Shown: one piece after another, positions 35,293 to 44,209 of the stretch
Layout: each line of letters begins with the position of its first letter
Position numbering within the stretch: position 1 is the first letter of the stretch
Source of the DNA: Micavibrio sp.
GTDB taxonomy: Bacteria; Pseudomonadota; Alphaproteobacteria; Micavibrionales; Micavibrionaceae
Assembly (NCBI GenBank): GCA_012960155.1
Contig: DUBU01000013.1
Coordinates: 25,816-89,815, forward strand
DNA length: 64,000 bases
Direction of reading: 5' to 3'
Notes under the pieces: model-generated
Told to the model about the DNA's origin: nothing
The model's database searches: none
What the model saw: only the letters and a program-made list of their open reading frames with translations
Translations under genes and position numbers: made by a program

Positions 35293-35317
35293 TACGCACC
35301 ACGCGTAGATTTGTTCC
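35293..35317 (-). promoter_or_regulatory. EcfG-type (general stress) promoter 1
   Basis: Read on the minus strand: GGAAC, 16 bases, CGTA. It lies 28 bases before the start of the 72-aa membrane protein. The motif matches the promoter type of the alphaproteobacterial general-stress sigma factor EcfG. Confidence 0.72.
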
Positions 35318-35318
35318 G

Positions 35319-35963
35319 TTATTCTTGTAATAACATTGCAGCAACGGCAGCTGTTTGCTCTTTATTCAAGAGAATTTGATAAGCGCCGGTTTCGGTTTCC
35401 ATGATATTAGCTTCCTCGTAAGGAATGCTGTATACGCGCGGTTGCGCTTCGGGCGCGATAGAGGGCTGTAATTCGAAATAGATATGATCGACATCTTGGT
35501 CTTTGTAGATAACGGCATCGACTTCTCCTGTGATATTTCCTTCAAAATCAATAATTTGAGCATTTTTGAGCATGCGCATATTCACATTGTCTTTGTTTTC
35601 CAGTGGTTCGATTATTGGCGCTGGCGCAGTTGATGATGTGTAGGCGGCTTTGGCTTTTTCTAGCTGTAAACCTGCATTTAAACCAGGGGAGGCAATATTG
35701 GCGCCATCTGCTACATCTTCAACTGCATCACCAATGGCGCTTACGATTGACTTGTCGGACTCCTCACTTTGTGTAATGGCATTGCTATTAACGCTTTCAG
35801 GTGTGCCGTCCTTGCTGAAGTACCATCCCGCAAAGAAGATGATGGCGACTACGAATAAACCGGACCACATAAAAAACGATACTGTTCGTTTAGCATAAGG
35901 CATGTTCGTATTTTGCTCTAGAATAGGGGCATTTTCTGGCTCGAAGCCATTTGCTTGTGACAT
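35319..35963 (-). CDS. Membrane-anchored protein with a PRC-barrel-like C-terminus
   Basis: 214 residues: a cytoplasmic N-terminus, one membrane segment (about residues 30-49, MWSGLFVVAIIFFAGWYF), a low-complexity stretch, and a C-terminal region (about 130-205) that reads like a PRC-barrel (AQIIDFEGNITGEVDAVIYKDQDV). It follows the secreted 85-aa gene by 23 bases, so both should be transcribed from promoter 2 at 36277. It resembles in its C-terminus the two-PRC-barrel protein at 36377-37273. Function unknown. Confidence 0.78.
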   Translation of the reverse strand: MSQANGFEPENAPILEQNTNMPYAKRTVSFFMWSGLFVVAIIFFAGWYFSKDGTPESVNSNAITQSEESDKSIVSAIGDAVEDVADGANIASPGLNAGLQLEKAKAAYTSSTAPAPIIEPLENKDNVNMRMLKNAQIIDFEGNITGEVDAVIYKDQDVDHIYFELQPSIAPEAQPRVYSIPYEEANIMETETGAYQILLNKEQTAAVAAMLLQE

Positions 35964-35986
35964 GGTTCTGTAATCCTACTGTTAAA

Positions 35987-36244
35987 TTAGATGCCTTGTG
36001 TTGCTTTAGGCTTTTTGGCCTGAGGCTCTTGCTCTGATTCTAGTTCTTCTAGCAGTTCCATAGGAATAGCGGCGCGAGAATCTGATTCAGGAAGCGTTAC
36101 CGGCTGGTTAGGCTGGTAAAGGCCTTGTTCTTGCATATTTCCCAGAACTTCCTTTTCATCAATACTTTCAACACTTGCCCATACACTTACGCCAGACATG
36201 GCGAGAAGGGCTGTAGCAGTCAGGATTGTTGTACGGAATTTCAT
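35987..36244 (-). CDS. Small secreted protein, 85 aa
   Basis: The ATG at 36244 follows AAGAGAGG, and the N-terminus is a signal peptide (MKFRTTILTATALLAMSGVSVWAS). The mature part is acidic and proline-rich (QPNQPVTLPES, EELESEQEPQAKKPK). A longer upstream reading would put 34 residues ahead of the signal peptide and is rejected. It is the first gene of an operon with the PRC-barrel-like gene and lies behind the GGAAC-type promoter at 36277-36301. No family recognised. Confidence 0.75.
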   Translation of the reverse strand: MKFRTTILTATALLAMSGVSVWASVESIDEKEVLGNMQEQGLYQPNQPVTLPESDSRAAIPMELLEELESEQEPQAKKPKATQGI

Positions 36245-36276
36245 AGTAACCTCTCTTTTTGTTATTCGCATATACC

Positions 36277-36301
36277 TACGCTTTAAGCCCTTGAAAGTTC
36301 C
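36277..36301 (-). promoter_or_regulatory. EcfG-type promoter 2
   Basis: Minus-strand GGAAC-N16-CGTA, 33 bases before the start of the 85-aa secreted protein. Confidence 0.72.
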
Positions 36302-36312
36302 GCATAAAGTAG

Positions 36313-36340
36313 AACCAGCCTCCTGTGCAGGAGGCTGGTT
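36313..36340. terminator. Terminator after the PRC-barrel gene
   Basis: A perfect 12-bp stem, AACCAGCCTCCT/AGGAGGCTGGTT, with a 4-base loop, 36 bases after the stop codon of the gene at 36377-37273 and just upstream of promoter 2. The tract after it on the minus strand is only moderately T-rich. Confidence 0.7.
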
Positions 36341-43799: not shown

Positions 43800-43851
43800 G
43801 AATCTATGAATACATTACTTCTTATAGGCTTATCAATGATTCTACCACAAA

Positions 43852-43883
43852 AAAGCGCCCCAAAATCACTTTTGGGGCGCTTT
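43852..43883. terminator. Strong terminator
   Basis: A perfect 14-bp stem, AAAGCGCCCCAAAA/TTTTGGGGCGCTTT, with a TCAC loop. It ends the UPF0391-like gene and insulates it from the kinase gene downstream. Confidence 0.9.
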
Positions 43884-43901
43884 ATTTTAATTATACGTTA
43901 T

Positions 43902-44078
43902 TTAAGCCGGTGGGGTACGGCCTCTGAGTGCGTGTACAACAGTGGCAATCAGGAATAATACTAGAAACACTACGAATAGTATTTTAGCAATTTCTGCAGA
44001 TGCAGCGGCGATCCCGCCAAAACCTAATACACCTGCAATTAATGCGACTACTAAAAATGTTAATGCCCAACCTAACAT
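43902..44078 (-). CDS. UPF0391/YtjA-like small membrane protein (DUF1328), 58 aa
   Basis: 58 residues with two membrane helices: [19 protein letters not shown], then the characteristic [23 protein letters not shown] and a short basic tail ([10 protein letters not shown]). This is the DUF1328 pattern, a common alphaproteobacterial stress-induced small membrane protein. The ribosome site is AAAGGAG. The exact stress promoter at 44147-44171 lies upstream, back to back with the ompA-like gene's promoter. Confidence 0.85.
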
Positions 44079-44146
44079 GACAGGCTCCTTTCGTTGTTCT
44101 GAACATTGGCCCGAAATATTTGGTATCGGGCGAACTCGGTTATTCC

Positions 44147-44171
44147 AACGTATGAGGGACGGTGTGGTTCC
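44147..44171 (-). promoter_or_regulatory. EcfG-type promoter 7
   Basis: Minus-strand GGAAC-N16-CGTT for the UPF0391-like gene. The GGAAC end lies 13 bases from the opposing promoter 8. Confidence 0.78.
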
Positions 44172-44184
44172 GAAAAAATAATTG

Positions 44185-44209
44185 GGAACAAATTCTTTCT
44201 TGTCGCGTT
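44185..44209 (+). promoter_or_regulatory. EcfG-type promoter 8
   Basis: Plus-strand GGAAC-N16-CGTT, 54 bases before the OmpA-like gene start. Confidence 0.78.

Follow-up and report, generated by a model that had tools for sequence, protein, structure and literature searches.

Positions 35293-44209 of a 64,000-nucleotide stretch of DNA from Micavibrio sp. (the window) carry eight sites of the form GGAAC-N16-CGT[TA] before small envelope genes, arranged around the genes of an extracytoplasmic function (ECF) sigma factor (sigma 40931), a divergent OmpR-family response regulator and a hybrid histidine kinase. The analyses reported below indicate that this island is probably the home locus of a general-stress-like regulon, governed by a two-component/ECF cascade instead of the PhyR-NepR switch. 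The window corresponds to positions 25816-89815 of contig 13 in a genome of 2.58 Mb and 39 contigs (G000) with a completeness of 99.6%; L and G numbers denote loci and genomes, respectively.

The original prediction, made from the letters of the window, had placed eight sites in the island before genes for envelope proteins. All eight were recovered at their coordinates and strands with a spacer of 16 bases, five ending in CGTT (37323, 38762, 40027, 44147 and 44185) and three in CGTA (35293, 36277 and 39236), and the distance from the end of the -10 element to the start codon was 28-69 bases throughout. The sites and the genes assigned to them are as follows, with the two bases after the -10 element in brackets.

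35293-35317, minus strand: promoter GGAAC-N16-CGTA(AG), before a single-span 72-aa gene (35047-35265)
36277-36301, minus strand: promoter GGAAC-N16-CGTA(GG), before a signal-peptide-like gene (35987-36244) and a one-span gene (35319-35963, tm214), a probable operon
37323-37347, minus strand: promoter GGAAC-N16-CGTT(AG), before a PRC-barrel gene (36377-37273)
38762-38786, minus strand: promoter GGAAC-N16-CGTT(TG), before an EF-hand gene (38176-38724) and a glycine-zipper lipoprotein-like gene (37919-38149)
39236-39260, minus strand: promoter GGAAC-N16-CGTA(AG), before an entericidin gene (39059-39196) and a 56-aa single-span gene (38861-39031, tm56)
40027-40051, minus strand: promoter GGAAC-N16-CGTT(GA), before a DUF883-like gene (39698-39985) and a two-span holin-like gene (39260-39694)
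44147-44171, minus strand: promoter GGAAC-N16-CGTT(GG), before a DUF1328/UPF0391 gene (43902-44078)
44185-44209, plus strand: promoter GGAAC-N16-CGTT(TG), before an OmpA-domain gene (44263-44919)

A simple hydropathy scan agreed with the envelope character of the products, as 11 of the 12 assigned genes encode a membrane-span-like stretch; the OmpA product fell below the threshold of the scan and its signal peptide was judged by eye, while the DUF883_C and holin models score under the Pfam cut-offs for the products of 39698-39985 and 39260-39694. Terminator-like hairpins follow several units (35017, 36340, 37391, 37886, 38825 and 43883), the one at 36340-36313 belonging to the unit that precedes the unit of the 36277 promoter, and the region contains 20 hairpins against 10 in shuffled sequences. 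Hairpins behind the units are consistent with one promoter per unit.

The density of the motif was then compared with that of the whole genome, where GGAAC-N16/17-CGT[TA] occurs 79 times (53 + 26), no more often than the reversed pattern (51 and 50). The 8.9 kb of the island hold 8 of the 79 sites where the density elsewhere in the genome predicts 0.25, a 32-fold enrichment (Poisson P about 3e-10, for an interval picked after the sites had been seen). Within the window, CGTT sites with N16/17 numbered 6, compared with 0.64 expected from shuffles. Outside the island, 59 of the 71 genomic sites lie inside an open reading frame (ORF) of at least 130 aa and 12 do not, by a rough criterion that would class site 44185 itself as intragenic through an upstream TTG start. 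Since the raw counts show no excess over the reversed pattern and most of the sites elsewhere are chance-like matches within genes, these counts were rejected as a definition of the regulon.

The evidence for promoter function comes from the comparison with relatives, which covered 15-20 kb around the sigma-gene orthologues in 20 relatives and was extended with 14 further loci to a total of 34. When all spacers from 12 to 20 were considered in the 20 regions, GGAAC-Nx-CGT[TA] was enriched only at N16 (47 sites) and N17 (36), the other seven spacers giving 3-8 sites each; the reversed pattern gave 17 at N16, 4 at N17 and 4-15 at the other spacers. CGTT sites with N16/17 amounted to 62 where the density in these genomes predicts 5.7, about 11-fold. 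Per-genome motif counts over 103 family genomes served for the density expectation only, because base composition would confound a comparison of sigma-bearing with sigma-lacking genomes. The sites also differed in position: 57 of 83 were extragenic and had a start codon on the same strand 5-110 nt downstream, whereas at 12 control spacers 8 of 53 did.

An orthologue test was carried out on the 34 sigma loci by searching for a site within 300 nt upstream of each gene. Sites were found before the orthologues of the PRC-barrel gene (10/21), the EF-hand gene (6/11), entericidin (10/19), DUF883 (10/20), DUF1328 (16/26) and OmpA (3/6), and before those of the gene for a 62-aa protein downstream of the OmpA gene (6/17). 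The genes that stand second in an operon showed few or distant sites: holin-like 1/22, glycine zipper 1/3, tm214 1/5, and tm56 6/12 with five of these at 177-211 nt. The regulatory genes of the locus are hardly ever preceded by a site (sigma 0/34, kinase 0/32, regulator 1/33, and orf93, described below, 0/13), and the 12 control spacers combined returned 7 upstream matches over all 17 genes. The comparison thus shows a promoter role for most of the island sites, as far as conservation of sequence can, and bears out the claim that they are of the EcfG type.

The sites also showed a feature outside the search pattern, a G two bases past the -10 element, giving the signature CGT[TA]NG. Among extragenic sites, 62 of 72 in the relatives have this G, as do 19 of 23 in ten named loci including Sneathiella and, in the Micavibrio genome, 7 of 8 in the island (40027 being the sole one without it) and 8 of 12 elsewhere; of the intragenic sites of the Micavibrio genome, only 15 of 59 have it. 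Near NepR genes it occurs in 3 of 12 extragenic and 10 of 33 intragenic sites. Intragenic sites also carry the G in the relatives (7/11) and in the named loci (6/8), small numbers that blur the contrast there.

Eight of the 12 extragenic sites elsewhere in the genome have a clear gene behind them and four have none. Two of the eight products match no Pfam family; the others are ExoD, Pmp3, a formate/nitrite transporter, an Exo_endo_phos protein, a histidine phosphatase and a sigma factor that Pfam assigns to Sigma70_r2 and that looks RpoH-like by eye. The phosphatase and Exo_endo_phos sites are without the downstream G. The extragenic GGAAC-N16-CGTTGG at about 802 of L191 (G000 C17), 95 bases before the RpoH-like gene, suggests a link to a heat-shock sigma factor. 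The original prediction had spoken of a dedicated envelope-stress island; the concentration of sites here stands, but their occurrence before the rpoH-like, Pmp3, ExoD, Exo_endo_phos and formate/nitrite transporter genes does not agree with a dedicated one.

The regulatory genes and elements of the locus are the following.

40931-41464, plus strand: ECF sigma factor of 177 aa, the proposed reader of the eight promoters
40074-40796, minus strand: response regulator of the OmpR family, transcribed divergently from the sigma gene
41556-43799, minus strand: hybrid histidine kinase with two spans, CHASE3, PAS, HisKA, ATPase and receiver domains
40816-40901, plus strand: ungapped operator-like array with repeats about 11 bp apart, ending before the TAnnnT -10 element of the sigma gene
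37762-37838, minus strand: another copy of the array, before orf93
37447-37728, minus strand: orf93, a soluble 93-aa protein without a GGAAC site
44984-45172, plus strand: soluble 62-aa protein resembling anti-sigma domains by profile matches and fold, a candidate anti-sigma factor

Of 104 family genomes, 40 have a match to the sigma factor, with at least 43% identity in 36 of these, and its named relatives include Micavibrio metagenome-assembled genomes and Sneathiella. A second, partial copy (61% identity over residues 1-111) was noticed in a 439-aa open frame of G014 (contig 154, 1139-1471), which may be a fusion or an assembly fault. The 20 relative regions share a conserved core, with the divergent regulator in 20, the sigma gene in 20 and the kinase in 19. 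Both Sneathiella litorea (L057) and S. sedimenti (L062) keep the order regulator, sigma, kinase, DUF1328, whereas the region searched in a third Sneathiella (L066) yielded neither the regulator nor the kinase.

The intergenic region between regulator and sigma genes contains an array with the consensus TGTTACA-N4-TGAAACAAAGTTTTTCA-N4-TGAAACA-N5-GACAAA-N5-GTTACG, followed by TAnnnT. A plain TGNNAC-N5-TGNNAC pattern was dropped since it missed many arrays, and an ungapped alignment of the window and 30 loci was taken instead, leaving out L021, L023, L027 and several later loci. The array is present in 29 of the 31 sigma loci, with self-similarity peaks at 11, 21-22 and 32 bases. A 28-base matrix built with the window copy excluded returned exactly two window sites scoring at least 10, the sigma array (43.5) and the array before orf93 (33.1). 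Among the relatives, second sites of at least 28 were found in 11 of 20 regions, ten before orf93 orthologues and one before a 73-aa ORF that resembles orf93 by eye; further array-like sites there reach 12-18 bits. Conversely, 10 of the 11 regions in which tblastn detected orf93 have a strong array before it, the exception being L037 with a weak site of 13.4.

As the seed of the alignment was read by eye from the same sequences, independent support for the array is provided by the orf93 copies. These were absent from matrix building, score 28-40, whereas the highest score in a further 109 kb of the Micavibrio genome is 7.3, and share the geometry of the sigma array across about 75 bases. The position and conservation of the array, together with the habit of OmpR-family regulators of binding direct repeats (passages of PMC9275681), suggest that it is probably the binding site of the response regulator, and orf93 is proposed as a direct target. 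The orf93 product matched no Pfam family and gave only weak single-member NCBIfam matches; its structure model is of moderate quality, with a predicted local distance difference test score (pLDDT) of 76, and its fold matches were uninformative.

An OmpR-type regulator on direct repeats next to envelope genes could also be CenR-like, with the sigma gene as one of several targets and an envelope rather than a general stress response as the outcome. According to passages of PMC9275681, CenR of Rhodobacter recognises direct repeats of the form TGA-N8-TGA and regulates envelope genes, and it has been reported from Sneathiellales; moreover, almost all effectors of the island are envelope proteins. 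Against it, the window has no array other than those of the sigma gene and orf93, and the promoter sites elsewhere include the rpoH-like, Pmp3 and transporter genes. We consider this explanation unlikely, although it survives best among the alternatives to a general-stress-like regulon under the two-component/ECF cascade.

The relation of sigma 40931 to the PhyR-NepR-EcfG system was investigated by model searches and phylogeny. The NepR model PF18557 returned no match in the Micavibrio genome, none over the cut-off in 103 family genomes and none in two Sneathiella genomes searched, within the reach of a model that detects the Caulobacter control and matches 36 of 240 class genomes, 30 of them over the cut-off. 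A weak NepR match in G073 was rejected, being inside a 322-aa membrane anti-sigma factor that adjoins a second ECF gene. Likewise, the PhyR sigma2 model PF22029 matched the sigma factor itself and no separate PhyR in the genome, again within the reach of the model. The 35 sigma-bearing genomes gave 35 matches to this model, 33 of which fall by position on genes of this sigma family; the other two are the second ECF of G073 and a 200-aa frame in G043, below the cut-off. No self-promoter was found within 300 nt upstream of the sigma gene in any of the 34 loci, and the adjacent kinase, the one kinase considered, is of the HisKA type (PF00512, 4.5e-22) and not HWE/HisKA2.

In a sigma tree of 75 rows, 23 family rows (a subset of the available family sequences) formed a clade with support 99 that was separate both from 25 of the 26 NepR-linked sigmas and from the one remaining; the deeper forks were weakly supported. 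When the long or short rows L094, L107 and L156 were dropped, the resulting 72-row tree gave the NepR-linked clade a support of 84, and a sister relation of this sigma to it was not rejected by the approximately unbiased (AU) test (p 0.128). In the light of these searches, a place of sigma 40931 in the known EcfG system is not supported: neither NepR nor a separate PhyR was detected, none of the 34 loci has a self-promoter, and the factor groups outside the NepR-linked sigmas in the 75-row tree.

Two loci with anti-sigma-like proteins came to light in these searches. In G073 (L165, 1459-2972), the second ECF gene (60 bits with the PhyR sigma2 model) overlaps the gene of the 322-aa membrane anti-sigma factor, the N-terminal part of which matches the profile of the 62-aa protein. 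In L162 (1492-2318), a 78-aa anti-sigma-like protein, recognised by the NepR model as well as by the 62-aa profile, overlaps an ECF gene and may link the NepR and ASDI types of small anti-sigma.

The island might still be an ordinary EcfG locus, with a PhyR and a NepR that have diverged beyond detection or fall in an assembly gap. The promoter and some effector types fit EcfG regulons (passages of PMC7083833 and PMC6599016), the AU result leaves room for a sister relation, and the NepR model may be limited in reach. The completeness of the genome, the absence of NepR over the cut-off from the family and Sneathiella genomes, the location of 33 of 35 PhyR-model matches on this sigma family, the lack of a self-promoter and the HisKA type of the adjacent kinase all argue in the opposite direction, and we regard an ordinary EcfG locus as improbable, somewhat more so than a CenR-like regulator.

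The 62-aa protein is a candidate for an anti-sigma role. A profile of 16 orthologues found homologues in 15 of the 20 regions, and of its 22 matches up to E 0.1 outside the orthologue loci, 17 have an ECF-like gene no more than 150 bp away (with one gene counted twice, as L052 and L165), against a background of 1010 of 9056 ORFs. The structure model has a pLDDT of 87, and its nine best PDB matches are all anti-sigma chains (RsiW, ChrR, MucA, RslA). In a second fold comparison the first six entries scored Z 4.0-6.5, a level that may reflect a common arrangement, and a seventh, unrelated entry ties at 4.0. Pfam recognised zf-HC2 in 2 and RseA_N in 1 of the 16 members. Altogether, these data suggest that the protein is a soluble anti-sigma domain and a candidate anti-sigma factor of sigma 40931. 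A terminator-like hairpin with a T run, recognised by eye at 44934-44960 and missing from the hairpin scan, lies between the OmpA and 62-aa genes; since it precedes the latter, this gene may need read-through or a promoter of its own.

Several observations weigh against the proposed reading. The array was not found in 2 of the 31 sigma loci, 2 of the 20 regions (L038 and L049) have no CGTT site, and 5 of the 20 regions have no homologue of the 62-aa protein, one of them (L041) being cut by a contig end. The individual fold matches of that protein are weak (E 0.54-6.3), and a PDB sequence search with its profile yielded no anti-sigma factor. The S. sedimenti locus (L062) is without any N16/17 site, although L057 has 3, L064 4 and L066 1, which slightly lowered our confidence. 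No orthologue of gene 35047 or 35987 occurs in the 20 regions, and of the 5 orthologues of 35319 among the 34 loci one has a site, so that sites 35293 and 36277 find little or no comparative support and, apart from that one tm214 orthologue, are proposed on their motif. Among the DUF1328 loci, 17 of 36 carry the site where the genome has the sigma gene and 2 of 10 where it lacks it, a difference short of significance (Fisher P 0.16); in this comparison all 47 matches were used, G014 and G086 were counted twice and G021, with a sigma match of only 28%, was set aside; both site-bearing sigma-lacking genomes (G025 and G026) are only 84% complete.

Finally, the genome contains four other small sigma-70-family genes, ECF-like by eye, and because of them sigma 40931 can be named only as the presumed reader of the promoters. 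That one of these factors reads the sites, sigma 40931 being a neighbour with targets of its own, appears the least probable of the alternatives. In its favour are these four genes, the GGAAC-like -35 elements common among ECF factors and the DUF1328 sites of the two incomplete sigma-lacking genomes; against it are the clustering of sites around this sigma gene in 20 relatives and a regulator-sigma-kinase core that is the constant part of the locus.

In the circuit that we propose for the two-component/ECF cascade, the membrane hybrid kinase (CHASE3-PAS-HisKA-receiver) would signal to the OmpR-type regulator, which on the tandem repeats of about 11 bp, recognised by their conservation, would switch on the sigma and orf93 promoters. 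The sigma factor would then transcribe the envelope genes through GGAAC-N16/17-CGT[TA]NG, both in the island and at scattered genes such as those of the rpoH-like factor and Pmp3, and we infer that the regulon is induced by stress. The soluble 62-aa anti-sigma candidate may restrain or reset the sigma factor, and in some relatives a promoter of the same type before its gene would create a negative feedback. In a wider form, which we hold with slightly better than even confidence, Micavibrio-like bacteria and Sneathiella would have swapped PhyR-NepR-EcfG for a cascade of kinase, OmpR-type regulator and ECF factor with an equivalent regulon, the dose of sigma being set transcriptionally by a multi-repeat operator that the sigma gene has in common with the co-regulated, undescribed orf93, while a free-standing anti-sigma domain would provide the feedback.

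Other features of the window were also recorded. Two further sites, CGTT at 5258 and CGTA/N17 at 19489, both lie within a giant ORF, a single open frame at 2-22816 of at least 7604 codons that extends past the window start and probably encodes a giant surface protein. Directly before the island, an 1810-aa ORF (28643-34075) is rich in parallel beta-helix-like repeats, as judged by eye.

The PhyR-NepR-EcfG switch has been regarded as conserved in Alphaproteobacteria (PMC5830050). A literature search, with subscription journals thinly covered, found neither a PhyR-free general stress system nor this module in Micavibrio or Sneathiella. If the proposed circuit is true, a master stress switch would have been rewired while its regulon stayed, the lineage keeping promoter and effector types under another circuit. 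The reading also places orf93 and the 62-aa protein, both small and so far without a name, in a concrete regulatory setting. Since Sneathiella has isolated strains, the circuit is directly testable. The parts of the island had been called mostly undescribed, which holds better for the regulatory parts than for the effectors, several of whose types (PRC-barrel, EF-hand and envelope genes) are named in known EcfG regulons.

Compared with PhyR-NepR-EcfG (ECF15), the island shares the promoter GGAAC-N16/17-CGTT, the envelope, EF-hand and PRC-barrel targets and the kinase input, as far as passages of PMC7083833 and PMC6599016 describe GGAAC-N16-CGTT-like promoters and such targets for EcfG regulons. 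It differs in that no NepR or separate PhyR and no self-promoter were found, in its DNA-binding regulator, HisKA kinase and anti-sigma candidate of the RsiW/ChrR kind, and in the extra G after the -10 element, present in 3 of 12 extragenic sites near NepR genes. The SigE-CseBC system of Streptomyces coelicolor (ECF39), in which an ECF gene is under two-component control, is similar by description: a two-component system, here also adjacent, is proposed to control the transcription of the ECF gene, and the targets belong to the envelope (passages of PMC8999054), whereas the island belongs to another phylum and has an EcfG-like promoter, a hybrid kinase and an anti-sigma candidate. CenKR of Rhodobacter sphaeroides, as described in passages of PMC9275681, is likewise alike in its OmpR-family regulator, direct-repeat operator and envelope targets, with TGA-N8-TGA in place of the TGTTAC/TGAAAC repeat array. 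The 62-aa protein resembles the ASDI anti-sigmas (RsiW, MucA, RslA, ChrR) in its predicted helical fold and in having profile relatives that adjoin ECF genes, but it has no membrane span, no metal motif by eye and a position about 3.5 kb from the sigma gene. We therefore read the module as the promoter and target types of EcfG combined with a circuit resembling SigE-CseBC, to which a free-standing anti-sigma-like domain has been added.

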